NCBI GenBank assembly: GCA_963969365.1
Contig: OZ017758.1
Location: forward strand, 2,232,001 to 2,296,000
DNA: 64,000 nucleotides
Direction of reading: 5' to 3'
Source of the DNA: Asterochloris sp. CNOR1
Lineage: Eukaryota > Chlorophyta > Trebouxiophyceae > Trebouxiales > Trebouxiaceae
In this document: positions 1 to 64,000 of the stretch, in pieces
How the letters are laid out: each line of letters opens with the position of its first letter
How positions within the stretch are numbered: the first letter of the stretch is position 1
The notes under the pieces: model-generated
What the model saw: the letters and a program-made list of their open reading frames with translations, nothing else
Told to the model about the DNA's origin: nothing
Database searches by the model: none
Program-made: the position numbers and the translations under genes

Positions 1-614
1 GCATAACACGGCAGCATGGTTGCTGCACCGAGGCCCTGCTGAAGGACACAGCATAATGATTGTTATTGCACCAAGTCTGGTGGTTGCACCATCCCAAGCA
101 GAACGAGCACCAGCTTGACAGCATCAGCCATTGATGCAGACGAGCGGTAGCGCCGAGGCCGCATCATGGAAGTTGAGCTGCTGTGCAGAGTGCCATCATT
201 GGCGGACTAATCTGATTGAAACCACTTGGCTGTGTGCAGCAGGGGTCAGCCTGAGCCTGAGGCAGTTCGCAGACAGGTCTGGGGGAGCAGTGAGCTCAGC
301 CCTCAGCCCAGTGGCACACCTGTGGGGCTGAACGTGGCCTCCTTCCTGCCCCAACAGGCTGTGCTGGTGAGCCAGACAAGGCAGTGCAGCGCCCTGATGG
401 CAGCCTCAACATGACAAGGTGTCATCAACCAAGGAGTCGCAGGCTCCAGGCGGCATGCTGGAGTTTCTCCTGCATCAGCACCGTTGCAGTTTTGGACTCC
501 CTCCAGACAGACGTTGACGTGCGTGCCAGACTCCTGCTTGGAAAAGTCTCTGCATGACCATAGCACCGCAAGGGCTCCACACCCGGCTCTGAGCACGCCT
601 CCTCTGGGCGGGCT

Positions 615-2236
615 GTGAGCAGCCGTCCTCGCACAGACTGGTCTTCTGCCGTCAGATGGTGTCCATGCATGCAGCAGCACAGCGGAGAGGCCAGTGCTGA
701 CGCTGAGGACGAGGGCGCAGCTGTGGCAGCGCTGCTGGAGCAGCACAGCGCTCTGCGCAGCATCCTGGGGGCGCGCCTGTCGCACCTGCAGGTGGTGCGG
801 GGCTTCTGGGCCAGGGGGGACCTGCGGGGGGCCTGCGCAGCCCTGCAGCGGGCCTCAGGTGAGAGCACAGCAAGGGTCATGCAGAGTTGACAGGATACAT
901 GCCCAGGTAAGTTGCTGCAGGGGGGTAAGATGACAGGGGGGAGGGGGGCAGGGACTGGATGCAGCCCTGCTAACGTTGAGACACAATGCCAGCAGCTGCC
1001 ACTGCAGGCTGCCAGGCATCACTGCTCAGGCTGTTGTCATGCCAGCATGCCTCCCACACACAGTACAATGTATGCAGCAATGCTTTATTCGATGTCGAGC
1101 GCATCTCTGAGCAGCAAGGATCTTTGTCTGGGCACAGCAGCCTGCTCAGGCTGACAAGCAGGATGTCAGACCAGTCCCACTTTGTCCGAAGGAATTGCAG
1201 AGCGCCAGCCGGGGAGGACTTGCTGCTGCAAGATGCGCTGCGTGGACGTGGGATGCGAGTGGAGCAGTTGCTTGCTGCGCCACGCACAGCCGATGCGCCT
1301 CCAGTGGCTGTGCAAACGTCTTTTTGACTGTAAAGTGCCAGAGCATGGCCTGCTGCTGACATTTGATGGCTGTGCAGATGTGTTGGTAACTGTGCACTGA
1401 CTCAACGTGACCTTCTGCTGACATGCAATGGCTGTGCAGATGCGTCGGTGCCTGAGGATTGGCCGAGCATGGCCTACTGCTGACACGCAATGGCTGTGCA
1501 GATGTGTCTATGACTGTGGACTGGCTCAGCATGGCCTGCTGCTGACATGCGACAGCTGTGCAGATGCATCAGTGACTGTGGACTGGCTCAGCGTGGCCTG
1601 CCGGCGGCCAGAGGCCTTCAAGCTGGAGGCCTGCTCAGAGGTGGTGCCTCTTCTGGAGCCCCTGTTGGGCAGCCCGCACGACAAGTATGTCCTCGTGGCT
1701 CTAGGGGCGCTGCAGATGTTGCTGCAGGCGTTTGGTCAGGTAGGCTGCCTCCTGCACCGCAGTCCATTGCTTAGCTTTGGGCGGCTGGCGCTATCGGCTG
1801 TCGGGCAGGCAGTGATGCCTGTGCTCAGCTGGCCTTGTGTCTTTGGTGGCTTGTCGCCATGTTTTAGGCTGCTCCTGACAGATTAATGTGCTCATTGTGG
1901 CCATGGGCTGATGCAGCTAGCAGCTGTATGTCTGGGCAGGGGGCCAGCAGGCTAGATTGTGAGAGCATGGTAGCATGCTTGGTGCTCTGCCAATGTCAGC
2001 AGGCCTGCCCTGGCGACCCTCACAGCATCTGGTTGCAGGTGATAGCTGCCGCGTGCAGCCAGCCGCCCAGCTCTGTTGGAGTGGACCTCAGCTTTGAGGA
2101 GCGCCAGAAGCGCTGTGTTGTGGCCCAAAGCAGCCTGCTGACCCTCTCCCCCCTCCTTCAACAGTTGTGTCGGCAGCCGCACGAAATAGGAGTGCAGGCC
2201 ATGCAGGCGTACGAGTCTCTCAGTCAATTAGCTTAG
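615..2236 (+). CDS. KATNB1: Katanin p80 subunit, C-terminal con80 domain (partial, 5' part outside or unresolved)
   Basis: The regulatory p80 subunit of the microtubule-severing ATPase katanin binds the p60 catalytic subunit through its C-terminal con80 domain. Three exons are clear: one ending at 858 (its start lies somewhere in 610-675), 1564-1739 and 2039-2236, with stop TAG at 2234-2236. Phases agree (1, then 0). The first exon encodes an ALLEQHSALRSIL helix followed by LQVVRGFWARGDLRGA; the second encodes DASVTVDWLSVA and LLEPLLGSPHDKYVLVALGAL; the third contains VGVDLSFEERQKRC, close to the katanin con80 consensus of plants and animals. The N-terminal WD40 propeller is not visible in 1-600. 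The gene converges on CTPA with only 76 bp between the two stop codons. The intron before 1564 carries a five-copy 62-bp array made from the acceptor and exon head. Confidence 0.85.
1290..1612 (+). repeat. 62-bp tandem array of acceptor plus exon head
   Basis: Five tandem units with an exact 62-bp step: the anchor CTGCTGAC recurs at 1353, 1415, 1477 and 1539, and TGGCTGTGC at 1305 and 1367. Each unit contains a CTGTGCAG-type acceptor followed by sequence like the start of the exon at 1564 (protein DASVTVDWLSVA). Earlier units translate to DVSMTVDWLSMA, DASVPEDWPSMA and a more decayed version with a stop. The last unit is the functional exon head. Confidence 0.9.
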
Positions 2237-2312
2237 AGTTTCGGTTCATGCATGCATTCCAGAACAGATGACATCCAATATTGGCTTTGCATTCAGCTAC
2301 TTATTTCAGCGC

Positions 2313-5300
2313 TCAGCTTGACAACATGTGCTCAAGATGTTCTTGTGCCATTCGAATGCATGGGTCATCTTTGAGACTGCTTGTATCTGTGCTGCCTGCC
2401 TGCCAGAACTCTTCAACAACTTCATCAGGTTTGCAGGCAACATCTGGCTGCAGGCCAACCTTGTTCAAGACCTCATGTTTTGGCAGGGTAAACGTCTGGC
2501 TAGAAACAAGAACAGTGCTGCCATTGCTGAGGGGGAGCACCTTCTGCGTGGTCCCCTTTCCAAAGGTCTTCTCACCGATCAGAGTGGCATTGGTGCTGTC
2601 GTCCCGCAGTGCTCCGGCCAGCAGCTCGGATGTGCTTGCTGTTCCACCATTCACCAACACGGCCTGCAGTGCAGCTACACATGCTGGCACCCTGGGCTCC
2701 TGTGCCACCAAGGGCTGTGGTCACCTCGCAAAGCGGCTGCGCCATCTCCGACGTCTCAGCGGCGTTGGCAGTCTTGGCGGTGGTGAAGCACAGCCTTCAC
2801 AACAATGCCAGGCATCATCGCCTGTTCATTTGCCTCACCAGAGGCTGCTTTTGCTTTAGCAGGGGGTGAACCTCAGTAATGCGGACCTCTTCCTCTGTGC
2901 CAGAGGGGTCCTGGACGTAGCAGAAGATGTCCTGCCCATTTTGCAGGAGCAGCTGAGCGATGTTGTACCCTGCTCAGCAAAGTGAGGATCACTGATGAGG
3001 GGTCACCGTGGCTGGCCGCATTGTGCACCTTTGGAGGTGAGCATCGCAGAGCAGGTGGGTGTGGGACAGCAGGGGGGCACAGGGAAGCTGAAGACATCAT
3101 CTCACAATTGTTTGGCACAGGCAGGCAGGATGATACTGGTGCTGGCAATCTTGCAGCAAACGAAGGGTGCCAGGCAAGGCAGCAGCCTCACCAGAGGCTA
3201 TGACACCTCCGGCATTGGCTCGGAGATCCAGTATAACAGAAGACACGCCGTCCTGCAAGCATGCTCCACACTCAGCTGTTGAGTGGCCATGCAAACAGCC
3301 ATGGCTGACTCACGCAACTAGCATCCATCAATGGCATGCAAAACCCCCGCAGAGCTGCCAGATCGCATGCTGCAGGAGCGAGGCAGATAGTGCAGGGAGC
3401 TCCAGATGCATGTTGCCATAACACGTCACACCGGCGTTGGGAGGGGGTCAGCACAGGGCACCATAAAAGCCCACCTTCTGCAGTGATCTGAGTGCCTCCG
3501 CAACATCTGCTGGTGCATTCTGGCTGAAGACAGTCAGCCTCAGGTAGCCAGCGCTGCTGCCGTTTTCCCTGCAGTCACATAGGCAATGCTACTTCCTCCT
3601 GCAGGTCTGTAAGGTCGGTGCAGCAGCAGCTTAGCTGTGGCGTAAATGCCGCATGCTGCCAATCAGATCAGGCTCTGCATTCAGGCAGCAGAGCCCAGGC
3701 GCACACAAGCATCAGGTCTGTTATCATTAAGCGCCTCGATGTGCAGACAACACTGTCAGGCAGCGGCGGCTCACCCTTGGAGCACAGCAAACTGCACCGG
3801 GTGGTAAGAAGAGGCAGCGGCGGCTCACCTCAGGAGTACGGCAACAGGCACCAGGTGGTAAACAAGGCAGCGGCGGCTCACCCTGGGAGCACAGCATACT
3901 GCACTGGGTGGACCTCAATGGGGCCTGGCAGCAGGTGCAGGCTCAGCTCTTGTGTCTCAGGCTCCCTAGCAGCAGCAGCGGTAGAGTCCCTCGGCTCCAT
4001 CTGCTGTGTCTGGGCGTTACTAGTGGCGACAGTGGTGGAGTTGCCCATCTGTGCCTCCTGTGTCTCAGGCTGCTCAGCAGCACCAGCGCTGGAGTCCCAC
4101 AGCTGCGCAACTGAGGGGCTCTGCCTCCGCAGCAGCAGGTCTGCCTCCATCCTCAAGTCTGTGGCCAGCTGCCTGCAAGCAAAAGCCAGTGGTGTGGCTA
4201 TGAGGGACTGGGCACGAGGGGACAACACGCAAGCAGTTGGTCTGCCGGCACAATGTGAGGCAAGGATAGCACTTTGCTCTCCCACTAGTCATCTGCTGAG
4301 TTGACGCCAGGGATATGGCTGTGTGACCAGTATGCAATGAGGGGCGACGACATGTGAGCAGATGGTGCTGCAGGCACAGTGGAACCCAGGGATGGAGCTT
4401 GGTCCACGCACAAGACACCTGCTGACTGCTACACGACCTCCTGTCCTGTCTGAAGCAGCAGATCAGCTGGCAATGACTGGCATTGCCAGGGCGCTTGCTT
4501 GTTGCTAGTGGGCCCCGCGCAAATCAGTGACATAGGCGCAGCAGGCTCACTGTCTGTCCCTGGCATCCACTGCCTTGCCGTTAAGCTTCACCAGCTGGTC
4601 CCCGACGCGGACGTCAGCCTTCTCTGCTGGGCTGCTCTCAGCAACAAAGGCCACACGGGCAGTCTGCGGGTTGCTGGGGTCGGGCAGCACCTGGAAGCCC
4701 AGGCCAAAGATCTGCCCGTCTGCAGGGTTGTTTGTCAATGTGTGGGGATGCCGACAGCAGAACTGCATGGTCTGCACATCCAGAAGCCACCACAGCAGCG
4801 CTGAGGGCTGCTGTGCAGCCACATGCATCTGGGTGGTTGCCCAGGAACTAAATCGCTTTGGGACTGTCAAGTTTGACAAGGCAGGAAAGGCAGGAAAGGC
4901 AGAAGACATTCAAGGAGGAACCCAGTGTGAGTTGTGCACAAGTGCGTGCAGCAATAAGGTGTGAGCAAGGGCATGCGCTGCAGGCATGCACCCGCGAGAG
5001 CAGCTGGCGTGAGCCCACCTGTTGTATCTCTGAATAGCGCGCTCTGCTTGGGCCGCAGTTGGCGGGTGAAGGGGTCGCCTGCACGCCAGAGGGGCCTTGG
5101 CCGACATTGATGAACACAAGCACCCTCAGGCTTCAATCACAGCTGTGCTGGGGTCTCATGATGTTCAGGCAGATGAGAAGCCAGCACCTGGGAGCCGGCA
5201 CACAGCGCATGCAGGCCACTCTGTCTGTGCAGGCCACCGCCCCTTTGCCAAGCCCTGCAGGCTGCCGTCAGTCTGCGCCTGCAGGCACTCCCCTTTCGCT

Positions 5301-10300: not shown

Positions 10301-13300
10301 CTCTGCCTGCCAGGCCTGCCTTGTCTGCAGTACTGTGCCTGCAGCGCTTTGCTTGCCTCACCAATCTTGGGACTCATATGCGTAAGTCTCTGGACAGACT
10401 GCCCCAATGCACCTGGACCCCTGCAGCTTTCGAGGCCTGGGAGGTGGCCGCCGCTGCAGGAGCAGCAGCGGGGGGGACCTAGACAGGGCAGGCAGCGCTG
10501 CGCAGCCAGTGGCAGTCTTGCGCAGCCACTCCAGGAGCAGCAGCACAGGGTCTGTAGAGGTGCAGCCTCTCGGGGCCTTTGGTGATGGAGCTGCTGCCTC
10601 ACAGGGCAGTGTAGCACCAGCAGCAGATGAGGAAACCCCTCAGGTGCAGGCGGGCACCCCTGCAGGTGGGCAGGGCAGCAGGAGGCCACCTGTGGCAGGA
10701 TGTGCTGTGAAGACCCCAGGCTGGTTCTGATGCCAAGCTGTTGGCCGGCAGTGATCAGGTGTTCAGTTGGAACAGCCCAGGTAGTCCATTCTCCTGCACT
10801 TGTCTCAGGCGCTGATGTATTGTGGAGATTGCCAGCCGGTCCTGGTGCTGTGCTGTCAGCCGATAGCAGCCGTGAGTTCAGAAAGCAATTGTGAGTTCAG
10901 AAAGCAGACATGACTTCAGAGAGACCAGCTCAGGCGATCCACTTCCCTGCAGTTCCTCGGACCAGCAGCACTGGGCGCCTGGGAGCAGCCCTGCGTGACG
11001 GCCTGCACAGGCTCAGCCGCGCCGGGAGCCGTCGCAGTAGCCGCCGGGCCTCTGCCAGCGAGGCGGGGGGCGGCATCGGCGTTGGCCAAGCCTTGGCCAG
11101 CACGGCAGGGCTGTCAGCTGAGGGGTCGCAGGCTGCTGCTGGGGATGGGGCGGATGCAGCAGAGGGGCGCTCTGCAGGACTGCAGGACGCTGCAGCAGGT
11201 GAGCAGAGATGCGCAGCCTGGCAGCAATATGTCAGGGCATGCCTGTGCATACATGGCCAGCCTGAGGTCAGCATGGCAGGCGCCTTCAGTGGAGGTGCTG
11301 ATACTGTCACGGAGGGGTGCAGCAAAGGGGTGCTCTCAGGACTGCAGGAAGCTGCAGCAGGTGAGCGGAGATGCGCAGCCTGGCAGCAGCTGAACCAGGC
11401 TTCCCTGCCAGGAGTCATGGCCAGCCTCTGGCTAGCTTGCCGGCGGAGGATCTGGATCCCCGTACAGGGTTTTGCAGCTGATGGTCCCATGCAGGACGGC
11501 AGGGAGCTGCAGCACTTCAGCAGAGAGGCACAGCCTGGCAGCTTGACAGGCCATTGCCTGTGAGGAATGTTTGCTGACCCTTGATCAGCATGACAGCACC
11601 TTCAGCTGAGGCGCTGCAGATACCTGCAGAGGATGCAGTAGAGGCAGCATAGGGCTGTGTACCAGCACAGCATGGTGCTCTGGCAGGTGGCTGTGCTTCA
11701 ATGTTGTCTGCCTGGGCAGCGACACGTCAGAGTGCATCTGGGCAGCCCTCAGCCAGCACAGCTGCACTCTCAGCGAGCAGGTCAAACGCCTGCATGGGGG
11801 CAGCAGCTGAGGCAGCAGGCACAGCACATATCTGCAGCAAGCTGCAGGTGCCTGTTGTGAGGCTTGCTGCCGTGCAGCTGGCAGCAGCTGGGCTGACCCT
11901 GCTTGGGATTGACTGGAGACGGGAGCCATACACAGTCATAGTGAGCTGACCCAGAGGGGCAGCTGAATGTTTGAGCAGGGGGGGTGCCCCCTTTTCCTTG
12001 CATGGTGGTCACAGCCACCTGGACGCTGCGCTCCTCAACCAGCACCTCTCTTGCTCATCAGTGCTTTGCTTGTGTGTAGGGAGTGCCCCTCCTCCCTCCA
12101 AAGGTGGCCACAGCCATCTAGATGTTGCGCTCCTTCAGGAGCGCATCCAGGTGGGCGCAAGCGGCAGCCCATGCGACCTCTGCATGCGCAGCATGTACAG
12201 CAAGCTGTGGTGCCAGGGTGATCTCTGCTGCATGATCCACACAGACGAGGCCTGTCCCTACTGCACAGGAGCCCGCTCAGCTTTTCCCAGTTGCTGAAAG
12301 GCATTCTGCCCCAGGTGTGCTTGTCCACTCACCTGTGCGTGTTGCACACCACCCGTTGCTGCATACTTGTGTTGCAAGCTCCCTGCCCAGTCACGAGGAG
12401 CAGCGGGACATGCTCATGAGAGCCTCTGCATGCCGTGCAGGAGGTGGTCGAGCAGGCGCCCCCCTCGTCCCGGCGCGCCCACAGGCGCACCCGCAGCAGA
12501 GTCCTCAGCGCTGAGGAGCAGGACATGATCATCGCCTCAGTCCTGCCAGACGGCGTGGCCCCTGCTACCGAGTCTGCAGCTGCAGCTCCTGCTGCCACCG
12601 GTGGAGGCTTGCTGGACAGCGTGCAGCCGCTGCCAACTGGCAGCAACAGTAGGCACTTGCCAGGCGAACAGGCGCCCCCGGCCGTGGCCGGCAGCAGCAC
12701 AGGGATGCGCCCTGCCGCTGCCGCTGCTGCTGCTCAGGATGGCACTGTGCTGCCGGGCAGCGCGCGGTTGGCACCGGCTGCCGGCAACAGCACAGGGCTG
12801 CCAGACAGCAGAGTCTCCACACCTGCTGCCGACAGCAGCGCAGGCCTGCCTGCTGCCGCGCCTGGGAGCGCTCTTGCCCATTCAGACAGCGTGCAGCCTG
12901 TCCCTGCTGCCGCTGGCAGCGCGGGCTTGTCTGATGCTGATGCCGATGCCAGTGTCCAGGCGGGCGCCATGCAGCCTGTGGGGTCCGTCGGCAGCATGAG
13001 AGGCTTGCCTGCCGCCACTGAGACCGCTCTGGTCATGCCACGCGGTGTGGAGCCTGTTGCGGCCGCCAGCAGCAGCGGTGACCACCCCGCTGCTGCTGAC
13101 GACTGCACAGCTACAGCTGCACATGCCAGGAACGCGGAGAGCCAGAACGCTGCAGCTGGGGACTGCGTAGGTGCAGCTCCACAAGTCAACATGGCAGAGA
13201 GCAGGGATGCTGCGGAAGGGGCAGCTGCGCAAGTCAGGAGGGCGGAGAGCAGGGGGGCTGCGGAAGGGGCAGCTGTGGGCGTGGCACAGTTGCCGGCACC

Positions 13301-16300
13301 TGCTGCTGCACAGGCAGTGCCCAAGGCAGCTGTTTGGCTGGGCGCAGCAGAGGCTGGGGTGCTTCCAATCCCACCTGCACCTGGTAGCAGCCAGCACCTC
13401 CCTGGTAGCGGTGGGGCCACACCAGCAAATCACAGCATGCACAGCGTGCAGCACAAAAGGGGCTCAGCCCCCAGCCAGGTCCCTGCAGAGAAGCACCAGG
13501 CCCTGCCATCAACTAAGGCTGAGGCTCGACCAGGGAGCGCTGCTGTTGGCAGGCCTTCGCTTGGAGGCAGGCAGAGGCTTGATGGTGAGACAGGCCATCA
13601 GGCCCTGCAGTCTGCTGAGGCTGAAACTCTGCCAGGCAGCGCTGCTGATGGCGGGCCATTGCTTGAAGGTCAGCAGGGGTGTGAAGGCCAGATGGCTGAC
13701 CACGTGCAGCAGCAGCAGCAGCCCAGTAGTGCTTCCCAAGCGCTACCCGGTGCAAGCGGCGTTGGCAAGGAAGTGGAGGGCCAGCGAGCTCGTGCTGGTG
13801 GCGCAGCAGATGAGGGGGCTCATACAGCAATAGAGGAGGTCGCAGGAGGTGGCTACAGCTCTACTGGACAGGGACACCAGGCGGATGATGGCATGGCGCC
13901 GGCAAGCCGTGATGAAGTGGCGCCACCAGCTGCGACCGGCATCCACAGAGGCTCTGGGCCCGGCAGTCGGCGTGGGAGCCGTCAGGGCAGTGCCACCTCT
14001 GGACCGAGCAGCTTTGCTGCTGCTGAGGGTGTGGTCCAGGTTGCTGCGCCCAGCGGCGGCGGCGGCGCAGTCAGCGGCCAAGGCAGCATCGCAATATCTG
14101 CCGCCAGTGAGACTGGTGCTGGAGGTTTCATTCAGAGTGTTGCTCCGAACAGCGGCTCCAGCCACCAAGACAGAGCTACCCTCAATGCCAACAGCAAGGA
14201 TGCAGCCAGCATGCAGCCCAGCCTCAACGTGGGTGTTGCTGAAGACAGCGGCAGTAGAGAGGGCAGCAGAGTGAGCAGTCGCCAGGGCTCTCATACATCG
14301 CGCACCAGGCTGGTCACAGACTTGGCCATTCAGAGCACTAGTGCCCCGGCCAGCAGAAGGATCAGCCGGAGCAGCAGTGCTGTAGAGGCCCCACCCTCCA
14401 TGGGAGCTGCTGGTTTGGAGGCATGGGCTGCAGCCGCTGCAGTGGTAGGCATGCCAGAGGCTGGGCGGAACCCAAGTGCCAGCAGGCGGACCAGCCAGAG
14501 CAGCGGGGCTGTTCAGCAGGGGCCACTTCAGGGGCCAGTGGGCTCCCAGACTGCTGCTGCTGGACCCGTGGCTGGGCAGAGCCAAAGTCCCAGCAGGCAG
14601 GTCGGCCCAAGCAGCAGTGACGTGGAGCAGGGGCCACTTGGCTCCCATACAACTGCTGTGGGGCCACAGGCTGGGACTGCTGCAGGCACAGGCGAGCCTA
14701 AGCTGGGCACGCCTATGTCTCAGGATGCTAGCAGCAGTCAGTCAGCAGTAGCTGGGCCTGAGCCCTCAGGGGCAGCCTGGCTGGAGTCAGCAGAAGGGCA
14801 ATGGGGGAGCTTTGTGCGACGTAGCCGACCCCAGGTCAGCTTCCCTGCCAGCCCTAGCACTTTATGTCTTGCTGGGGATGAACATCTCAACAAGGTGCCA
14901 GGTAGCAGTGCTATGCTGAACAGGCTGGATAGGTGATCTCCAGCAAGACAGGGCAGCGGCGCAATTGACCAAGTTGGGTGTGGAATGGTGTCGGATGCGT
15001 GAATGCCCTGCTTCTCTGAGGAGGACCAATCTGGACTGCACAGACACATGGCACAGCGTTGATAAATGGTGGTGATTGCCACGAGGAAAGGGCATTGCAT
15101 CCCCCCATCCCTCATCAACATGCAGCCTCATGGCCATCTGACAGTCATAGGCAACTTTGTCTCCTGACATCAGTGTGGGTTGGCTGACTGTAGGTGGTCA
15201 GGGCTCAGGCAACAGAGGGGTCTAAGCCAGCGCTCAGCACTGCAGGCAGGGCGGTCTCTGGTGCTGATGACTCTACAGTGGAGCGCTCCGGCCAGCCAGC
15301 AGATGCCTTGCCTGCCAGCGCAGGCTCTGCCGCAGGCAATGGCGCTCAGCCTGTAGAGCTGCAGCGGCATCAGCAGGCTGCACCCTGTGCAGATGACCAC
15401 TCTGCGACCGCAGATGCTGTTCAGACAGCTCCGCAGGGAGCCATGCCCACTGCACCTGCTCGGACAGGAGACCCTGCTGCTGCCTCAGCTGCAGAGGCAC
15501 GGCCTTCAGACCAGCGGCCTCAGTCAGAAGGCGCACCTATAGCAGAGACAGGGGGAGTCCAGCAAGAGGCCGCAGCTGCCAGACCGTTCAGGGCTGTGCC
15601 TACTGCTGCGGAGCAGCCTGCAGCCACGGGGCTGGGCCGCAGCCTGTCAGGGCTGCGCCAGCAGCAGCACCGCCTGAGCAGCAGCAGCATGCCGGACCCG
15701 GCAGCACGCGAGTCGCTGCAGGGACTGGCTCCACAGCTGAGGCATCCACAGAGCGAAGCAGGGGCACGCAGCGCGGTGCCGCCGCCTACGCCAGCGGCGG
15801 ACGCTGCTGGGGACCAGCAGGCTGCGAGTCTGTCTGACCAGCAGCAGCCGTGTGGGGCAGTGCTTCCCGATGAGCAGGAGGGTGTGGCAGGCGAGGGTCC
15901 ACAGCAGCTGCCGCAAGGAAGGCCGACGGCTGAGATGCCGCAGGTGAGCTCAGACTGATGTCATGAAGGCTGACCAGAAATTAAGTTAGCTTGTGATGAT
16001 GCTGTATGTCTGAATGATTGGTCATACTAGGAGCTATGGATCTTCTTTCAAACAAAAACTGCTGCAATGCCAGAAGGTGAGCCCAGGCTGTTGTACTGGA
16101 TTCCCACTGCTGATATGGTGGAGGTGAGACCAGGCTGCTGTTTGGAAGGCTGAGTGCTGAGATGCTGGAGGTGAGACCAGGCTGCTTGTTGGAAGGCTGA
16201 GTGCTGAGATGCAAGAGGGAATGCCAGCTTATGTTGCACTGAGCTGCCAGGGAGCCCGTCCAGACATGCCACCACATGGCTATCCCCGGACCTCTCAGTG

Positions 16301-19300
16301 CATCACACAACACTCAAACAGGGGGACAGCGTATCAAGTGACCCCAGGGGCACAATGACCTCTGAGTAAGCCCGCATAAGTCAGCAATTGTCATGCTGGC
16401 TCACTGCAGCGCCATCTCCAGCTGCTGGCCTGGACCCGCCATGACTGCGAGCTGTGCATGACGTGCAGGCGTCACCGGGACTGGGTTCATCTAAGGAGAG
16501 GCTCCGTGCAGTGCTGGTCTGCAACTGCCACTGCTTCCTCAAGTCCCTAGGACCCTTGCAAAGCTCTGCCAGGTGCGCCGACTCCCCTGTTGCAGAGGCT
16601 CACACAGCAACATTGTCAAAAGTCACATCAGTGCTGAAGCACCAGGCGCTTGGCAGGCCCCTCCGTGACTGGGCTGCATCTCTGTTGGCTGCTGCAGCAC
16701 CACTGTCTGTGAGGCTGACAGGACCACCTCTGAGGGCAACGCTTGGCTGCACAAGTGCTGCTTGCAGGGGCGCTATGTGTTGCTGTGCCTTTCATGCATT
16801 TGAGCAACAACTGCCTGCTGGAGGAGGTTGCTGCAGCTCATATGCCCTCCAGCATGTTGTACACTGTGCTGGCTGCAGGCCTTCCCTGCTACAGCGCTTG
16901 GCACAGTCCAGGCGCCACCGCCACAGCAGTCTCATGGCTCCCCCAACAGCCCTGAGCGGGCTGCCCACAGCGCTGTCTGGGACTGGTCAACCTGCGGGAG
17001 CTGTGGAGGAGTCTGGCTGCGTGGCGCTGCAGCTGCTGGCAGCCAAGGGGGTGCCATCAGCGGGTGAGCCCATGCATGTGCTTAACTTATGTGCTGCAGG
17101 TGCTGTCTTGGGCGCTTCCAGCACAGTGCTGACAGCCCAAATGTGCACCCAAGTCTGTGTCGCTTGAATCTTAGAGGCAGGCATTGCTGCGGCAGGCTGC
17201 AAACAGACTGATGTACTGGCTGCAACTGACACTTACTCACCAAAGAAGGATGTGGCGGGCCACCAAAGCATCAGGATGACAGGTTTGCATGAGAGTGCAG
17301 AAATTTTGCGGTTAGCAAAGTGAACTTAGGCTGTAGGGGCTGAACACGCTCCAGCAGGGCACATAGGCATCAAAACAGCTGAACTTTTGCGCATGATGGG
17401 TCACTGGCCTGCAAAGGGGGCCCATGCCCCACACATGTGCTGGAATGGGCGCTCAGCAGGTCATTGCGGGGCCTGCACAGGTCAATCATACCCAGCACAG
17501 GACGTGTGCTGCAAAGGACAGTCAGCAGGTCATTGCGGGGCCTGCAGAGGCCTACAATGCCCCCAGCACAGCGCATGTGCTGCAGAAGGCGCTCAGCAGG
17601 TCACTGCTGGCCCTGCAGGGGCTGACCGTGCTCCAGCGCGGCACGTGGTGCGCCTCGGTCTGACAGACGGCTTTCGCTTCCACGGGAACATCTGCTGCCT
17701 GGACCCCGCCCAGATCCGCCCAGGTGGCAGCAGCTGGGGCCTGGAGGGCAGAACGCTGTTGCTAAGGGCGTGCAGCGCGAGTGGCGGTAGCGGGGACAGG
17801 CGACCTCTGCAGGTGTGGCTTCCTGTGAGTCTCAGAGTCACCCAGATGTACAGTAGCAGAGGTGGTGGCGGTGCTGAAGGGCGCTGAATGCTGCTGCCCC
17901 AGTGCATGCAGCTGTGGGACGGGCGGCAGGGACAGGCAGCCTCTGTAGTGGGGCTCCAGGGTTCTCTTAAGCAGCCTGTAGCGCATTTCAGCCTGCCTGC
18001 TGGGAGGCTGTGTCCAACAATGCAGGCCCCTGCGACGCCAGGGCTTTCAGTTTCATCTTGTGGCTTCCGCCTGCCCCTTGTGCATCTTGTGTCGCTGCAC
18101 CTGCATGCCTGTTGCACCCAGCTTTGATCATGTATGATGGCCTGAGAACTTTCTGTGGCCTATGTTTCGCATAAGGGAGCCAGCACTGCTGTAATCTTAC
18201 CCCATAAGAGTTGAAGGGCACTCCGTGCAGCCACAGGCATCGCGACGCCTGTGCTTTGACCATCAGCATCAAATGGGGCTTCTGCTCGCCCCTCATGCAT
18301 TGCATGGCCTTGTTCCTGCATAAGGTCCTTGCATGTGTCACCCTGAGGAGCCTGTGTGGCCTGGACTCTCCACAGGGGAGCCACTGCATATAAGCAGTGC
18401 TCCATTCAGCTTGAAACTGTTTGTCCTGTTCTAGGTGAAGCCTAGGCTGCCAGGTGTTTGGGTGGCTCGTCAGACAGCGGCTTGCCTTGCAGGTGCTCAT
18501 TGAACTCAATGCGTGCTTCTATCTGACGCCCGAGCGGGCTGCCAAGCTGGCTCTGCCCCAGTGGCATGCAGCCAAGCAGGTGGACGAGGTCACCCTGGCC
18601 TGGGCATTGCTACCCTGGGACTCCTTGGTCAAGGTGCACAGGCAGACTGTGGTTGTGTTGTTTGCTACCCTGCTTCGGGGATCTGTGTGGCTGGACTGGC
18701 TCTACCGCCCTTGCTGGTGTGCACAGCTCATCTGCATGTACAGGGAGGAGGCAGACGCTACCACCTGCTGTTGCAGCTGCTTCTGGAGTTAGCTGGTCTG
18801 AGCTGTGGTGCATGAGCAGGTGCATTGCCAGATGCGCACCAGCTACTGCTGCAGCAGCCCTTGTCTGCTGTTCATGCACAGATGGCCTGATGTGAAAGAG
18901 CATGTTGATGCAGGCGCATCCAGAGCAGACCATGTCCTTGCAGATGCAGTCTGGCCCCTTTGTGTATATTACAGCACACGCAGAGCCCCAGGTCAGCCCC
19001 TGGGTGTGCAGCGTGCCAGCCAGTGTGTCGAAGGCCGCCCCATGAGCTGCACCCCATGACATGTTTATAGAGTATGCAGGCCACTGCTGCTGTTTTCCTT
19101 GGTGCTAACCCTGTGCACCTCTAATAAGCTCTGAATGGCAGGGTTGACCCACAATTGTGCTGGTCCTGTATATCAGAGCTGCTGCTGTTGTCTTCGGTGC
19201 CAACCCTGTGCACCTCTTTCAAGCTGTGAATGGCAGCATTGAGTCAGATATGTGCTGGACCTGTATCTCAGGCCTGCTGCTGTTGTCAGTGGTCCTGACT

Positions 19301-20352
19301 CTGCCCACTCCCGCAGAGGCTCGGACTGCTGGGCCGCCTGCGGAGCAGCAGCAGCAGCTCCAGTCCATTTTTGAGTTTCAGAGTAGTGGAGCGAGGTGCA
19401 GCAAGCCAGGCTGCCGCACAGGGCGGCTCCTGTGCATGCATGATAGGCAGGCCACTGCAGCACGCACTGGTGGGGCTTGCGAGGCAGCTGGTTGCCCAGA
19501 AGCTTGCCGAGGTGAGAAAGGTCGAGGTCCATCCAACTTGCAGGCAGGGTGGCAGACCACCACACTGCTCCAGCCAGGAAGACCTGTCAGGAGCACCTGG
19601 CTTGCGGCATCTCGGCAGTTTGGTTCTTTGCGTGGGCTGTGACTGACTGCTGAGGCGCATGGGCTGGCCCAGATGAGATTGTGGTCAGGACTGGCTTGCG
19701 GTGGCATGGCTCATCATGACACTGCTTGCTTGGGCTGCTGCTGATTGCCTGAGACCCCGGAAGCACTGCATCTCCTGGCAGCTGCAGTGTTTGTGCTAGC
19801 AGCATGACTTCTGGATGGTATGAGCATGCATGTTCAATTTAGGCAACAAGATCAGCGCGTGCATTGCACCACCGTTTCCTCAACACTGTGCAGGCGCCTT
19901 CAGTACAGGGGGCCTCAGCAGACCCTGCAATTGCCGCCATGCCAGCAATTTTCGACGACCCACACTTCAGTGTAGCTCTTGAGCAGCTGTGGCAGTCACA
20001 ACACGAGGCCTGCCCATATCCCCTCCCTCCACCAGAGAGACTACAGCTCTTCAGGCAGTGTGTCCTCCTGCTGTGGCCACTTGCACAGCATTCACAGGTT
20101 TGTGGCCAAGCAGAAAGTGTATCGCAGCCAGGATGTACTCTCATGCGACTCAATGCCCAGCTTTCTGCCCTGCAGGTGCTCCCGTCTCTGCAGTTGAATC
20201 ATGCAAAGTTGAGTGCCCAGCGGCAGCAGTTGATAGCCCGCTGGGTGAATGAGGAACATGACCAATTGGGCATCAGCGTCTCCTCTCAGGCAGCCAACTG
20301 GCTGCTTGCTCCTTTTTCCTCTACAGAGCTGAGAGCACATGTCCTGAGCTGA
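7345..20352 (+). CDS. Very large Ser/Arg/Ala-rich protein of unknown function
   Basis: Not recognised. Exons chained by phase: 7345-7593, one ending 8292, one ending 9228, 9628-9748, 10427-10665, 10953-11198, 12080-12150, 12441-14834 (798 codons), 15194-15943, one starting 16410, one ending 17063, 17619 to 17812 or 17824, 18493-18633, 19317-19511, 19894-20097 and 20176-20352 (TGA). The joins around 7600-9200 and 16400-17100 are uncertain. The N-terminal part has SR-type patches (HSRSSRGGRLSRSSSAGDL, SRAGSRRSSRRAS). The 798-codon exon is low-complexity Ala/Gly/Ser/Gln with internal repeats and is probably disordered. A Cys/His cluster (HDCELCMTCRRHRD) follows near 16440. The C-terminal 250 residues look folded and helical (ELNACFYLTPERAAKLAL, ARQLVAQKLAE, FSVALEQLWQSQHEA). 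A split into two genes near 8316, where AATAAA occurs, is possible. It ends 134 bp from the NOL11 stop. Confidence 0.6.
11140..11560 (+). repeat. About 161-bp tandem units of exon tail plus donor
   Basis: The functional exon ends at 11198 with a GTGAGC donor preceded by an AGGACTGCAGGACGCTGCAG context. A near copy with GTGAGCGG lies at 11361 and a third, more decayed one (GGGAGCTGCAGCACTTCAGC) at about 11500. Each is followed by the same GCGCAGCCTGGCAGC-like stretch. All copies after the first lie in the intron. Confidence 0.8.
11998..12150 (+). repeat. About 99-bp duplication of a short exon
   Basis: The exon 12080-12150 encodes SAPPPSKGGHSHLDVALLQ. A copy about 99 bp upstream (about 12000-12050) reads APFSLHGGHSHLDAALLNQ in an equivalent register and includes the acceptor side. 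Only the downstream copy fits the splice phases. Confidence 0.75.
16045..16222 (+). repeat. 47-bp tandem array of exon tail plus donor
   Basis: The functional donor GT at 15944 follows GGCTGAGATGCCGCAG. In the intron the same context recurs with donors at 16077, 16124 and 16171 and a damaged one at 16217; steps are 47, 47 and 46. The copies read like AGTGCTGAGATGCTGGAG followed by GTGAGACC. Confidence 0.9.
17325..17660 (+). repeat. About 70-bp tandem array of acceptor plus exon head
   Basis: TCAGCAGG recurs at 17453, 17522 and 17593, and two further diverged units begin near 17331 and 17407. Each contains a CTGCAG- or CTGTAG-like acceptor and sequence like the head of the exon at 17619 (GGGCTGACCGTGCTCCAGC). 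The unit at 17619 is the one whose reading frame continues into the conserved-looking exon. Confidence 0.85.
19084..19320 (+). repeat. About 96-bp tandem units ending at a 3' splice site
   Basis: CTGCTGCTGTTTTCCTTGG at about 19084 recurs with changes at about 19181 and 19275; all share a following CCCTGTGCACCTC or CTGCCCACTC stretch. The third unit runs straight into the CCCGCAG acceptor of the exon at 19317, so the array repeats the polypyrimidine/acceptor side of an intron. Confidence 0.8.
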
Positions 20353-20486
20353 TCCTGCTCACACAAATACAATCATTCATGAGCTCTGAGCGTCAAAACA
20401 AAATGCCTGATGATCTGCATCTCTCCAGGTGCTGTAACTGTTGACTGTTGAGCAGTGAGGGGTATCCCTCCTGAAACAGCGCTGTT

Positions 20487-27055: not shown

Positions 27056-27212
27056 GGCTCACGGCCGCTTCATGGCGTCCTGGAAGGCCACAGGTGGCTT
27101 GCAGAAAATCGAACACTCAAGCGCCAGCTTTGTGTCATTGCCAGGCAGCAAGCTCATTTTGTTGGCCACAGCAAGCCTGATGGTCTGATTCTGTCTAGAC
27201 TGGCATCTGGCT
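27056..27212. promoter_or_regulatory. Short shared promoter between NOL11 and COQ5
   Basis: Only 157 bp separate the two start codons, which point away from each other, so both core promoters and leaders must lie here or overlap the coding ends. No TATA-like box is evident to me. Confidence 0.55.
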
Positions 27213-29270
<2,058 letters not shown>

Positions 29271-45700: not shown

Positions 45701-48700
45701 CAGCTGTTTGGCAGGCTCACTGCTTTTGCGGCCTCTTCCCTTGTTTGCTCAGGACACAGGTCATTGCCTGACTCTATGATTCGGGCGTCCCCTGCTTCTT
45801 TCTGACCCCTGGTCGCCCTCCCAATCTCTATCTCTGTCTGCAGGGCGGCAACCTGCGTGATGCCTGGATGAGGCATGGAGCTGACCTCAAGTGGAGCAAC
45901 AGGGGATGGTTGGTGGCACTGGATGTGGCTCGGGGGCTGCACCACCTGCACACCAACAAGGTCATTCACTGTGACCTCAAGACCTCGGTGAGTCCCGCCT
46001 GTCTTCTGGTTTGACAGCACGTTGTCGTTTTCACAATTGTAATACGTGACTGGAATGTGCCTGACTGGCTGCGATGAGTGCTCAGCAGCAGTTACACGCG
46101 TCAGCTTCTGCTCTACATGTGCCGCTGTTTTAGTCAATGGGACTGCCCAGCAAAATGCCAACGGCGGTTTGGCACCGAGCAGATTGCTTGACGATTCTGC
46201 AGTCAGTGGAGCATATCAGTGCCAGATGCAGCTGTACCCACCTCACAGGAGCCTGTTCACATCTACTGAGGGGGAGGCTTAGCCTGTGTGCTCACACCTC
46301 CTGAGGGAACACCTGAGCCCTGAGGGGGATCCTTAGCTTTATGCTCACTTTATCGAGGGGGAGCCTTAGCCTGTATGCACGCATCTGCTGAGGGGGCACT
46401 GCTGCTGCAGAACATCCTGCTCACGAAGAACTTTGAGAGCGCCAAGGTATCTGATGTTGGGCTTGCCAGGTGAGCCCTGAGGCCATAGACACAGCATGCT
46501 TGGTGACGCTTCAGTGTCCCTGAGACAGCTGAGCGTGCCGGTGACGCGCTCAGATGTCCAAGGCGGCAGCTGGGCTTGTTGCGCCCACTTGCAAAGGCAG
46601 CATGCCTCATACGATGCCAGCTGCTGGCCTTCCTCTGCCTTGTTTACTCTTCGGCAGGCTGGCAGGCCATGTCTTCGTGGGCTGAGCTGTCTGGCGGACT
46701 GCAGGATCATGGACACCAGCAGCCACTCAGCAGCCAACCAGGGCACATTCAGCTATGCTGCTCCAGAGCTCCTGCTCAACCAGAAGCTGGACGTGAAGGT
46801 GAGGGTGCAAGCTGGCATGACCTGCAACGTGTTGCGCTGCCACAGGCAGGAGCTTCAAACCCTGCTGTCAGCAAGCGTGCAGCAGGCTGTCTCTGCTGCT
46901 GTGTGCATTGTTCTCCTGAGCGTTCAGGCGACCCATGGCACAGCACCCTGGTGCTGCCTTCATCTCATCTGATTTGTCTACTGTTTGTTCAGGTAACATG
47001 GCCCACCTGGTCCTGCCTCTAGCTCCTCTTAACTTGTCCACAGGATCTTGGCTCACCTTTCAGGCAACATGCATAGCACAGCTGGTGCTGCCCTCACCTG
47101 CTCCTGTGTGTCTGCAGCTCTGACACGGTCTTGCATGAGCTGCATGCACCCCATGCCACAGCACACTAGATGTCGCTTGCATGCGCTGCTGGCTGAGCTC
47201 CACAGCTTTGGCCTGGTCCCTGCACAAGCTGCATTCAGCCTGGCGCAAACCCAGCATGCTGCATGCTTTTAGTTTTGCTGCAGGCTGACGTGTACAGCTT
47301 TGGTGTGGTCCTGCATGAGCTGGTTACCTGGGAGATCCCCATGCGCGGTCGCCTGCGCGACATCCAGCCCCACGAGTGTCCCCCCGGCATCGTTCAGCTC
47401 ATAGAGGAGTGAGCCTGGTGCTGCACCAGCTGCTGTCCTGATGTCGGCTGCGGCAGTTGCAGCCACTCTGCAGGCACCAGCTGCTGCCTGCACTGGCTGC
47501 TGTTGACACATCAGCTGCTGAGCTGCTGTGACCACGGCATGGTAGGCAGAGCCTGCTGGCTGGCATACCTGGGCCGGTCAATACCTCTGTGGCTGCCCAA
47601 TATGCTGCTGGCACAGCTGCAATAAAGCAAACTAGTTTTATTTCTGCTGCCCACAGCGCCAGATGCTTCGTGACACTGCTGCTGCAGACAATGACTCGTC
47701 TGAAGCATTGCCCTTGCGCGTGTGTGTGCAGCTGCCTGGTGGTGGATGTTCAGCTGCAGCGCACTGCTCCAGACATCTGGTGACACTGCTGCTGTGAACG
47801 TCACTTGTCTGACGCACCGCCCTCGCCTGTGTGCAGCTGCCTGAAGGTGGACGTCCACGTGCGGCCCACCGCTAGGGAGGCTTTCCAGCGCATCAAGACC
47901 ATCATGCAGGAGGCGCAGCCCCTGACAGGCGGCACCCGCCTTCAGAGCCTGGCAGACCGGCCCATGAATGATGTGAGCGGCTGGCACATGGCCAGAGCAA
48001 GCCTGGCTGCTGGGCTGCACTGCACCTGTCAGCAGCATGCTGTGTGTTTGAGCACGTCCACCTTGGTGAGGCCTCAAGCTCCCCTGGTGTGGTCAAATCC
48101 CACAGCACAGCTGGCTGTCCCACGCCTACCTGCATGCTGCATGTGGGCTACGTCATTTGCAGGTCAGGAACAAGCATCTCCCCTGCTGTCTTTGCAGAGG
48201 CTGAACTTGCCTGATGCTTGCAGGTCCTCAATGCAATGGAGGGCAAGACGCGCCTCAACCAGGCCAGCTGGCCCAGCGAGGCCTCAGGCTCGAATGCCTC
48301 AGGCCTGACCTGCTGTAGCACCAGCTCGGCAGACTTGGCGATGCCCCCCAACCCTGTGGAGGGGCAGGCAGGGTACCCCTTGATCGAGGACCAGCAGCGG
48401 GCCAATCTGCGTCTGGGGTCGCTCCATGACAGCGCCAACTCGCGCCTGATCAGCCCTCAAAGCTCCAAGAACATGGCTGCTGCATCTTCGGGGCCCCACC
48501 AGTTGGGCCCGAGCCCCCTGGCTCCGCAGCCCTTGCAGTGCCAGCCACCGGCCAACATCCAGCTGACGGGGGTGCAGCACCCCAAGTGGGTGCCCAACCA
48601 TGGGTTTGTGTCGCCTTTTGCGGCCTTTGGGACGCCACAGGCTCAGCTGCAGATAATAAACGAGGCCTCCGGTGTCATCTCCAGCACCGACAGCACAGGC

Positions 48701-52348: not shown

Positions 52349-52735
52349 GCCTGCCTGTTGCCACTTCGACGTTGACTTTGTGCTCCATGTATACCCCACC
52401 CCAACCCCACACCTATCCCCTTGGCCACATATGTGCACACAGAGCGCTCAAGGTGCGGAAGGTGGAAACCGGAGAGGGGGGTTGGAGGAGGTAATCTCCT
52501 TGATTCGTGGGTATCCTCCTCCTTTTTTGCTTTTTGCAATGGCCGCCCTCGTCGATGCCACACTTTTTAGGTCTCGGTCAACGGGGCCCTCTTTTCTCGA
52601 AAGCAAGTCTCAGCACCCAGCAGGAGTCCGACACCAAATGCAGGCTGCTGATATAAAGCCAAGCCCCTACGAGCCTGGAGTATACTTTGTCAAGGATCAA
52701 TCTTGGCAGGCAAGCATGAGTGCCCCCTTGATTAC

Positions 52736-58632: not shown

Positions 58633-59363
58633 AGCCGCTGTGGGCAGATTTGCGACGCAGAGATAGGGAGTTTGGCCATGCAGCAGGGCTGCACTGGGCG
58701 CAGGTGCTGTCAGCCGCATCTGCCTGGCAGGGGAGCAGCAAGAGCAGCAGGCAGCCAGACAGGTAAATGCGGATGCTGAGATCCTGACAGGAGGCTCGCA
58801 ATATAGCAACCCTTGTGGGTGTGGTCGGTGACGTGGGGGACGAGAGGCGGGCATGCTGCGGGGTTGCACTGGGCGCAGAAACTGCCCGCCACATGTGCCT
58901 GGCGCGGGTCAGGCCAAGCCAACAAGATGATTTGTGGCAGTAGCTGAGCATCGGGCAGCTTTCTGACTGCAGGCAGGGCTGGGACACTGGACAGTGGCTT
59001 ATCTGTGGTGGCAGGCAGGATGCAGCCACTGCTTGGGCCAGGCTTGTCAACTGTGATTGGCGATGCAGGGTACTGCTTCACTTGCACAAGAAACTGAGGC
59101 GGCTGTGCAGGTGGTAGCCACACAGATCATAGCACCAGGGCAGACAGCCGCTGCGAATCCGACCGTGCCTCAAGCTGTCACAATCACATTGCGGCATGCT
59201 GCCTAGCCTGGGCATGGCCCCCAGGCTGTCTGCAGCATCTGCCTGGCCATGCAGGGTCACCAGATGAACAGTGCCAGGCAGCAAGCGTCTTACGCGCTTA
59301 TATGTTGCTGGGTGCTCGGGGGTCAAGCTGGCTCAGGCCCTCCTTCTGCTGAGTCACAACTGC
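58633..59363. other. Intergenic region with imperfect duplication
   Basis: Between the MAPK-like stop and the next predicted start. Two related blocks containing TGCAGCAGGGCTGCACTGGG / TGCGGGGTTGCACTGGG followed by GCGCAG and GCCNCATCTGCCTGGC-type sequence (about 58678 and 58856) are about 180 bp apart. No coding segment is recognised. Confidence 0.45.
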
Positions 59364-61620: not shown

Positions 61621-63261
61621 TGCAGGCTCGTATCTCAATCCTGGACGTCATGGGGAGTGGACCTCCAGCTCAGGCACGGTCCTGTTTGATCTTGGTTGCT
61701 GCTGCTGCCTCTTGCGCACCTGTGTGCCCTGATAATTGGCAGACACTGCCGCGATGTGTGCCTGGTCTCCTCAATGAGGCTGGCCCCTGCGGTGCACATC
61801 GCGCGGAGCTGGACTGCACCATCGCTGTGCATCAAGGCATCAGCCACTGCCACACCTGCAGTGCAGACTGTACGGAGCTGCATTGCTCCATTGTTGCACA
61901 CAAGGGCATTGGGCAGTCAAGCATGATAGTCTGACGCCTGCAGTCTAACGGTCGCTGCAGGCACAGGACCAGCTGCAGGCCCAGCATGGGGGGTTAACAT
62001 GCTGCCCCCTGGCATGGAAATCACAGACGAGCATATGCTTGAAGTCATTAGGCGGCAGCAGCTGCGGTGACCCTCCTACTGAGATGACTGTCAGAGTCCT
62101 GCTGCCAGAGTCCTGTTCAGGTTCCCATCAGAGGTATTGTCTGATGGTCCAGCAATCAATTTCCTGACGCATGCATTCAGGGCCATCTGTCTGCCATGTA
62201 CCACCACGGCCAGCTGTCGCCCCCCGCTTACCCTGTCCCTGTGAAACAGTGAAGTATGAATTGTGTGTCTTCTGGACTCAGGGTCATGACACTCCGTCAT
62301 GGCAGCTGCTAGGTGTAGGCTGCTCGAGCAAAATGCAAGCCCACAACCATTAGACATTGACTCTCAGGGCAGGTCATCACAGGCATAGGAGAGGGCCTGG
62401 CATGGTGATGAGAAGTGCTGCCCAGGAAGAGCTGTACTGTGTGCACAAGCCCAGATGACCTGCAGAGATGGGTCCAGTGTACAAGGTGCTCAGCAAATGG
62501 AGTTGGACTGCAACCATGGAGGTGAAGCAATTCCAGTTTCTTTGGTGTGAGCAGCTGTGCAGGTGGGAGCCAGGGCTTGTTGTCAGGGCAGCGGAGAGCC
62601 CACACTGTGAGCAGCTGCACCACTGGGTGGGACCTGTGGCTAAGGCAGACAAGGCTCTGCAATGACAGCAGCTGTGCATGTGGCGTTGGGGCCTGTCAGC
62701 GGTCTAAAGGACAGCTGTGCAGGTGGCGCAAGGGCCAATCGATACATTGTGGCCAGGTACACCTCACATGTCCTTCTAGAGAGCTGTTCCAGCTCTGTCT
62801 CAACCTTACAATGTGCAACCAGAAATCTTTTTCTGTGCACTCTGGATTGTCAGCTCCATGCACTCAGCATGCCTGATTCGGGGCTCCAGGGAGACCAGCA
62901 CCTGATTGTGGTGCCATCCTGGAGTGCACGTTTAGCTCAGACCTCCAAGTCTCACAATGTGCATTTTGACCAAACATCTGAAGCATCAAGTGCAGCTTGC
63001 TATGCACTCAGCATGCCTGCTTCAAACAAGCAAAGAGACCAGCATCTCATAAGTTGTTCTGGACAGTCAGACCTCAAAGTATGCGAAGTGACCAGACCTC
63101 TTTGCTTGAGGAGTTGGCCTCCTGTTCCTTGTGCAGCTTGTGCGTCTTGTGACCCTTGCGCACCACGCAGCGCCCACATATGTGCTGTGCTCTTGGTGAG
63201 AGTGGCTGCGATGCTGTCTGTGGTGGCCCAGGGAACAGACAGCGGAGCTGTGCAGGGCCAG
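61621..63261. other. Intergenic region with tandem and dispersed duplications
   Basis: No convincing gene. About 61775-61925 holds a roughly 70-bp tandem duplication (GGAGCTGGACTGCACCATCG / GGAGCTGCATTGCTCCATTG). About 62868-63065 holds a roughly 130-bp duplication beginning TGCACTCAGCATGCCTG. The similarity to the intronic arrays suggests that the same duplication process acts outside genes, or that an unrecognised gene lies here. Confidence 0.5.
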
Positions 63262-64000
63262 TTAGACCGTCAAAGCTAGTGTTGTGGTGGTGGCGCTCAG
63301 AGCGGTGCTGACTTGTGCAACTGAGATATGCCCAGGCTGCTTTGCAAGGTTGAGCAGGGCAGGTGCCGCCTGGCCCTGGAGCTCCAGGCGCCAGCATGCT
63401 GCAAGGGTCGCCTGCGGAGAGATAGACACTTGCAGTGAGCGTCCAGCATCGCAAAAAAGGGCGCAAGCGCTGACACGACCCATAGTGTTGCGCATGCCTA
63501 TGCTCCCTGCTGCTGGTTGTCGTGTGCTGTGAATGCTACCAAAGCATATTACACCTCAACCCAAGACAGTCCTGATGACGCTCACCTTATTGTCGAAGGT
63601 ACCAGCCACACTCCCATGACCACACCCTGCTGCTGCATTGAGCCAGGGTGCACACCGTTGCAAGACAACCTGACAGTGATGCCCACCTAATCATCGAAGA
63701 CTCCTGCCAAATGGGCAGTGGCACAGATGCGGCAGGTCGCGTCCTGTCCCCGCTTGTACAGCCTAAGCAACTTCTCAGCCTTCTTCTGCAACCTGCAGCA
63801 GGGGGAGGAGGGCCGTCGGCCAGGCCTGAGGAGCGCAGCACACAGAGGACGTAGCGTCAGCAGCCAGGGAAGGAGGGAGCTAGCTGATCACAACGAGCAC
63901 ACCCGCGAGCTGAATACCAGGGCCAAGGGCCACTGCCCAACGCAGGCGACGCTGTGTGGGCGTGCAGCACATGCCACCAACCCTGCAACGCAAGCTATGG
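63262..64000 (-). CDS. 3' end of a minus-strand gene leaving the window, product unknown
   Basis: A segment from 63792 encodes LQKKAEKLLRLYKRGQDATC followed by RICATAHLAGVFDD and meets TAG at 63689-63687. About 91 bp further on, a sister copy encodes CGHGSVAGTFDNK and ends at 63596 with a good GTGAGC donor; it can join in phase 0 to a last exon 63411-63262 (WRLELQGQAAPALLNLAK, stop at 63262). So either the gene ends at 63687 and the rest is echo, or the second copy is the functional exon tail. The family is not recognised. Confidence 0.4.

Follow-up and report, generated by a model that had tools for sequence, protein, structure and literature searches.

Genes and duplicated sequences in the window

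The window (the whole 64-kb stretch of alga-like nuclear DNA analysed) contains models for a CtpA-like protease, a UbiE protein, a low-complexity protein (10.4-16.0 kb), a minus-strand gene (20.5-27.1 kb), a fusion of an L7Ae-domain protein with a receptor-like kinase (29.9-52.1 kb), a MAPK-like protein, and genes at 59.4 kb and 61.1 kb. Exon edges are predicted: an ab initio gene finder trained on the sequence itself supplied them, together with homology in the CtpA, UbiE, L7Ae, kinase, and MAPK portions. Two sets of models were used. The earlier set (67 introns) served for direct and inverted window rates, base coverage, and boundary-touching and pair-placement counts; its edge analyses omit introns shorter than 80 bp (one kept 63 of 67), and its near/far window test omits those shorter than 150 bp. 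The later set (78 introns), in which canonical splice sites were enforced, served for the intron-birth, per-edge copy, rotation, and decoy-strength results. The edge set omits the model at 1-1774, which has stops in its translation, and exons that are shorter than 40 nt or have a low coding score, so that 71 of 89 exons and 120 edges were kept; the per-edge copy count and its rotation control also omit introns shorter than 80 bp, which leaves 113 edges. A mini-exon at 42685-42711 in the first models has a non-AG acceptor and was taken as a decoy copy.

Several edges are accompanied by a copy in the neighbouring intron. For instance, the exon tail and GTGAG donor of intron 3569-3881 in the CtpA-like protease gene (minus strand) are present three times at 3758..3911, at offsets of 53-54, and the outer copies are 93-94% identical. 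On the plus strand, the acceptor and head of a kinase-domain exon beginning at 47837, recognised by kinase homology, have an upstream intronic copy at 47670-47768 (feature 47670..47873), and the head of the kinase exon beginning at 47284 (ADVYSFGVVLHEL) has a decayed intronic copy in which the AG is lost (47185..47322). Similarly, a CTGCAG acceptor with exon head (42247-42295) is copied at 42057-42105, at an offset of 190 (42057..42295), the exon head at 34356 is copied at 34249-34295 with 83% identity (34249..34398), and the exon tail and donor at junction 31009 are copied at 31071-31142, at an offset of 79 (30981..31142). In the low-complexity gene, a tandem unit of approximately 163 bp lies across the donor of intron 11199-11477 (11083..11445, plus strand). 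Arrays to which no strand was assigned include a 62-bp array of about four copies with 77-80% inter-copy identity (1305..1601) and, outside gene models, a 47-bp array whose copies carry GGTGAG (16058..16227) and a 95-bp tandem pair with 82% identity (19084..19308), which is the same phenomenon at a distance from modelled exons. Additionally, a perfect 40-bp tandem duplication (24609..24688) within modelled intron 24302-24698 is the sole pair of 100% identity among pairs of at least 25 bp.

Extent, range and age of local direct duplications

Short-range direct repeats (offset 15-600 bp, score of at least 14.5) number 101 in the window, versus 3 at 5 kb offsets and 0-6 in each of 15 local shuffles, which were made in blocks of 100-300 bp with dinucleotides preserved. 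At a score of at least 18, 55 near pairs are present versus 0-1 per shuffle; at a score of at least 15 there are 92 near pairs, whereas five controls at far offsets gave 1-2 each. For comparison, 50 kb of E. coli contains 2 near direct repeats. Among candidate eukaryotic or algal comparison contigs, no relative was confirmed in IMG/VR, and GTDB genomes yielded two short ones. Local direct duplication thus exceeds chance by far, and its rate at exon edges is approximately its rate elsewhere. The offset spectrum has its maximum at 100-150 bp and reaches background by approximately 600 bp, with which the periods of 40-184 bp given in the original prediction agree; copies are approximately 30-180 bp long and mostly spaced by 50-300 bp. 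A dispersed repeat family or Introner within the window was rejected as the source, as far-offset similarity is at chance level (direct orientation, sampled offsets, 64 kb). An Rfam search of the window at gathering thresholds gave no match.

Some of these pairs may reflect classical minisatellite turnover by slippage, of which two-copy remnants persist. TRF reports 23 rows that merge into 21 loci (1,799 bp, or 28.1 kb per Mb), and copies abut in 31 of 87 pairs, a set that is mostly but not wholly independent since some arrays are counted more than once. In 49 of the 87, however, the copies are more than 30 bp apart, so many are either not simple tandem duplications or the unit has partly decayed past detection. 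Few pairs are young, and most have decayed considerably: among 65 pairs that are 25 bp or longer, only 2 reach 95% identity. The duplications are probably old, and the continuing activity that had been proposed is not borne out. Minisatellite turnover is a possible but less probable account, and would be a special case of generic local duplication rather than a true alternative to it.

Copies of exon edges and their placement

A copy in the edge's own intron was found for 26 of 113 confident exon edges (24 of 67 introns), versus 0-4 hits among 83-102 scorable edges when targets were displaced by 5-20 kb (ten runs). The original prediction was therefore right that near, direct, decayed copies of exon edges lie in adjacent introns. 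Its proposal that a single copy per array matches the conserved protein was examined in individual kinase and CtpA exons and stays unconfirmed. Thirteen of the 26 run across the junction, and their alignment includes the splice dinucleotide; six contain exon bases only, and seven contain only edge-adjoining intron bases; exon bases are thus copied at 19 of the 113 edges. At least one copy is present in six of the eight gene models with tested edges, namely the CtpA-like protease, the low-complexity protein, the minus-strand gene at 20.5-27.1 kb, the fused L7Ae-kinase model, the MAPK-like model, and the 59.4 kb gene, while no copies were found at the six tested edges of the UbiE model or the single tested edge of the 61.1 kb model. 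The exon side is the longer aligned side in 14 of the 26, with 591 aligned bases exon-side and 535 intron-side. Slower decay of exon copies, which might account for the uneven placement described below, found no support in these lengths and was rejected as the whole explanation.

These copies could mean that exon-edge duplication is a distinct, favoured, splice-site-carrying tandem process that drives intron growth in the lineage. The number of copied edges, many with exon bases, is as such a process would produce, and the 26 edges weakly exceed the 19.6±4.1 obtained with rotated edges on the same measure (ratio 1.3, p=0.08). However, a window-based test gave no edge excess (11.0% at edges versus 10.0±2.2% under rotation, p=0.34), and in the earlier models boundary-touching pairs showed no significant excess (16 versus 12.5±3.2 expected, or 12 versus 9.6 with the low-complexity gene removed). 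Like copies also occur deep in introns (16.6%) and outside gene models (13.7%), versus 23% at exon edges on the same measure. Because the edge rate is close to the rate elsewhere, ordinary local duplication seems the likelier source than a special intron-building route. The predicted concentration of copies on exon edges is consequently not upheld, although there may be a mild preference for them.

Placement in the earlier models gives a similar picture. Approximately 10% of windows have a near direct repeat, versus 1.2% with a near inverted and 0.3% with a far direct one (introns shorter than 150 bp omitted), and exon edges did not differ significantly in this test. Detectable pairs cover 13.9% of exon bases and 7.0% of intron bases (9.3% and 6.2%, respectively, without the low-complexity gene), as well as 8.6% of the DNA outside models. 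Exons are thus no poorer in copies than introns. The suggestion that introns are built from copies was not upheld. Intron-intron pairs number 13 versus 22.4 under random placement, and exon-exon pairs 15 versus 8.8 (5 versus 4.6 without the low-complexity gene); this deficit and surplus indicate that placement is not strictly uniform.

Splice signals and intron origin

The GT or AG is kept in 10 of the 13 junction-spanning copies. This too would suit an edge-driven process, but 8.6 are expected from identity alone, and no retention beyond general identity was found in these 13 copies. The splice-like signals of the original prediction are therefore present, some at full consensus strength, but not preferentially kept. 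Some putative decoys score as high against the splice consensus as the real site; for instance, the CtpA-like decoy donor has the same PWM score as the real donor, and splicing at the far donor copy (offset 107) would cause a frame shift. Overall, 8 of the 10 intact putative decoys would cause a frame shift or stop if used, as expected if the outer site is the one spliced. At one of the 13 junction-spanning edges, the acceptor of intron 21496-21861, the predicted real site is poor and the decoy scores better, so the gene model may have picked the wrong acceptor. Taken together, a distinct edge-driven process is unlikely.

It is less probable still that tandem duplication of exon segments carrying AGGT gave rise to the introns in the first place, a known proposal that the original prediction mentioned. 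The window is rich in local duplications and the mechanism has been documented elsewhere (PMC3443670), but when donor and acceptor flanks were compared at the intron-length offset, none of 48 introns exceeded the 99th percentile of swapped pairs in the gapped comparison and 2 of 48 did so ungapped (0.5 expected), a comparison that is blind to very old births. Least credible of all is that CAG/CTG-rich local composition produced the similarity without duplication: CTGCAG-like words are abundant and near inverted similarity is slightly raised, but the local dinucleotide shuffles yielded far fewer pairs than were observed.

Interpretation

Very probably, the copies result from generic local duplication that ignores gene structure, strikes exon edges by chance, and lengthens introns as a by-product. 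Strand-break repair, slippage, or another process of general action would have left many short direct duplications, now old and densely spread, close to their source and regardless of gene structure. Copies spanning an edge would survive, nearly neutrally, because the outermost splice site still yields the original protein; with that site in use, the inner copy would turn into intron and decay, leaving longer introns and decoy splice sites. A more speculative and rather doubtful extension is that local duplication is unusually active in this lineage and that edge copies occur a little more often than expected since a redundant splice site leaves them with almost no harmful effect, which would together produce an intron-length ratchet and a genome-wide reservoir of full-strength decoys and potential isoforms.

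The window provides a record in which short local duplication can be measured over the exons, introns, and remainder of an alga-like stretch, and a simple null for testing claims of splice-site-driven intron growth. Were the weak excess at edges (p=0.08) to hold across the genome, intron lengthening and decoy sites would be tied to a mutational process.

Comparison with known systems

On the best reading, this type of duplication is already known from vertebrates and flies. A 2014 study by Vaughn and Bennetzen, cited by Schimmel et al. 2021, reportedly concerns rice. A literature search, confined to titles and abstract openings and with subscription papers mostly outside its scope, did not find decaying exon-edge copies in algal introns. 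Chlamydomonas and Volvox introns and CDS have the highest tandem-repeat densities, and repeats are commoner near intron-exon junctions, with short units (GT/AC) as the top intron motifs (PMC3887541); exon-edge copies are not mentioned in the available portion of that study. In contrast, the copies here are decayed, tens of bp long, and without significant junction excess. In tandem genomic duplication as a mode of intron gain (reviewed in PMC3443670), the duplicate sets both splice sites of the newly formed intron. In this window, the duplication likewise bears splice signals, but an existing edge is copied, the intron is lengthened, and the birth signature is absent.

Closer parallels come from repair-mediated local duplications in vertebrates, which are closely linked and up to 619 bp long (Pace et al. 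2009, PMC2671141). There, a repeat-assisted search of the human genome detected 824 events of this closely linked type; 278 of the 824 donor sequences were intronic, and a few contained partial exon/intron junctions or whole exons. The duplications described here are also short and closely linked, but amount to 87 pairs in 64 kb and were found by plain similarity. In experiments on mouse and human cells, small tandem duplications arise at strand breaks (Schimmel et al. 2021, PMC8355091), a candidate mechanism for the tandem duplications of tens of bp seen here. Similarly, fly regulatory DNA has an excess of short-range similarity that falls with distance and is ascribed to local duplication (PMC3188502). 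The same decay with distance is observed here, although the range is approximately 50 bp between binding sites in flies and extends to approximately 300 bp in this window, irrespective of sequence type.

Gene models

The 64-kb nuclear window has a G+C content of approximately 59%. Three successive rounds of self-trained gene finding yielded 12 models (68 introns), 13 models (67 introns), and 11 models (78 introns), canonical GT/GC-AG sites being enforced in the last set; a GTGAGC/T donor and a TGCAG-like acceptor were learned for the spliceosomal genes in the window. Homology supports a CtpA-like protease (best solved relative 1fc6, the photosystem II D1 protease, which we take to be from Scenedesmus), a UbiE/COQ5 methyltransferase, an L7Ae-domain protein (presumably SECISBP2-like), a kinase, and a MAPK-like kinase. 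Such protein evidence, the CtpA-like relative included, is consistent with a green alga, though short of proof. In a Pfam scan of ten proteins, no family was found for proteins 2, 8, 9, and 10, the four that are without homology support, nor for protein 7, which yet aligns weakly to MAP kinases. A very long Ala/Ser/Gln-rich low-complexity protein (12485-14813), with repeats internal to its exons, belongs to a model at 10.4-16.0 kb that lay outside the protein scan and is without homology support. Additionally, a kinase exon start may have been missed at 46400-46430, within modelled intron 45988-46657, where NILLTK is read after CTGCAG and the sequence resembles part of the next exon (46756-46785).

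Near direct repeats

Local duplication in the window is real, strong, and general. Ungapped direct repeats at offsets of 15-600 bp number 92 at a score of at least 15, where none of five far-offset controls exceeded 2 (range 1-2), and 101 at a score of at least 14.5, versus 3 at a 5 kb offset. At the latter threshold, five order-3 Markov sequences yielded 2-5 each, 50 kb of E. coli K-12 yielded two near and two far repeats, and 0-6 pairs remained after local dinucleotide shuffling (15 shuffles, blocks of 100-300 bp); at a score of at least 18, the window holds 55 pairs and the shuffles 0-1. Offsets peak at 100-150 bp and reach background by approximately 600 bp. The pairs collapse to 87, largely independent, covering 9.3% of the window; the copies adjoin in 31 and are separated by more than 30 bp in 49. 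Spaced direct repeats with several offsets also cluster at 58531-59247, a stretch running from where the MAPK-like model ends into sequence outside any model.

Copies at exon edges

Copies of exon edges do occur in adjacent introns, as originally noticed. Nineteen of 126 edge tests (63 introns) outscored all other introns (11 acceptor, 8 donor), and under the later models an intronic copy exists for 26 of 113 confident edges, spread over 24 of 67 introns. Thirteen of these copies extend across the junction and align at the splice dinucleotide, six hold exon bases only, and seven hold only edge-adjoining intron bases. Clear examples are a donor triplet in the CtpA-like gene (3758-3911), the heads of two kinase exons (47284 and 47837), an acceptor at 42265, and an exon head at 34356. 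Copies are found in six of the eight models with tested edges.

In the deciding comparison, however, exon edges carry near copies at the background rate, or slightly above it at most. Among 50-bp windows, a near relative was found for 37/268 spanning donors and 27/263 spanning acceptors, compared to 30/238 and 21/225 exon windows more than 25 bp from an edge, 175/1588 in intron interiors, and 227/2220 outside models; controls gave 5/1440 (relative 5 kb away) and 17/1440 (near inverted). At confident edges (n=120), 11.0% of windows have near relatives, versus 10.0±2.2% when edge positions are rotated (p=0.34), and boundary-touching pairs number 16 versus 12.5±3.2 expected (p=0.19), or 12 versus 9.6 without the low-complexity gene (p=0.245). 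The most sensitive edge measure gave 26 versus 19.6±4.1 (p=0.08, 60 rotations), falling to 17 versus 12.2 (p=0.10) and 8 versus 6.1 (p=0.35) at scores of at least 18 and 25; off edges it gave 16.6% in deep intron and 13.7% outside models (904 draws each), and edges with displaced targets had copies at 0-4 of 83-102. The originally described focus on exon edges is not borne out beyond what may be a mild effect, and in all likelihood stems from where a reader's attention falls.

Copies were also said to keep splice-like signals. GT or AG is intact in 10 of the 13 junction-spanning copies, but identity alone predicts 8.6. Several candidate decoys score at least as high as the real site by position matrix; if used, eight of the ten intact candidates would cause a frame shift or stop, and two (introns 11199-11477 and 32052-32492) neither.

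Placement and age

Pair placement departs from a strictly uniform process. Repeats cover 13.9% of exons versus 7.0% of introns (9.3% versus 6.2% without the low-complexity gene). Compared to random placement, intron-intron pairs are rarer (13 versus 22.4) and exon-exon pairs commoner (15 versus 8.8), the latter becoming 5 versus 4.6 on removal of the low-complexity protein, which accounts for 10 of the 15. Slower decay of exon copies would yield this; at edges it is not clearly visible (591 exon-side versus 535 intron-side aligned bases).

Young duplications are scarce. Of the 65 pairs that reach 25 bp or more, six are at least 90% identical (two at 95% or above, four at 90-95%), eight fall at 85-90%, 28 at 80-85%, and 23 lower. 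The sole pair at 100% is a 40-bp tandem duplication inside a modelled intron and near a donor (24609-24688). A steady process would be expected to leave more young pairs, and the layer therefore looks mostly old, unless young exact copies are lost again; the shortage could reflect either a past burst or such loss. Continuing intron growth is accordingly not favoured.

Intron birth

The tandem-duplication model of intron birth makes an intron's donor flank a duplicate of its acceptor flank. Flank similarity exceeded the 99th percentile of swapped pairs in none of 48 confident introns when gaps were allowed in the alignment and in two when they were not (0.5 expected), and this origin was rejected. 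Existing introns have been lengthened by duplications, which, at detectable ages, do not appear to create introns.

Comparison with known systems

Among the papers listed in literature searches, none describes algal introns that hold decaying copies of exon edges. Intron gain via tandem duplication has been reviewed (PMC3443670). Strand breaks give rise to small tandem duplications (PMC8355091), vertebrates have repair-mediated local duplications, among them partial exon/intron copies (PMC2671141), and pervasive local duplication is inferred for fly regulatory modules and not for yeast (PMC3188502). Among algae, core-Reinhardtinia have conspicuously long introns, of a cause that the authors call unknown (PMC8226300), and tandem repeats in Chlamydomonas and Volvox are densest in introns and coding sequence and commoner by intron-exon junctions (PMC3887541).
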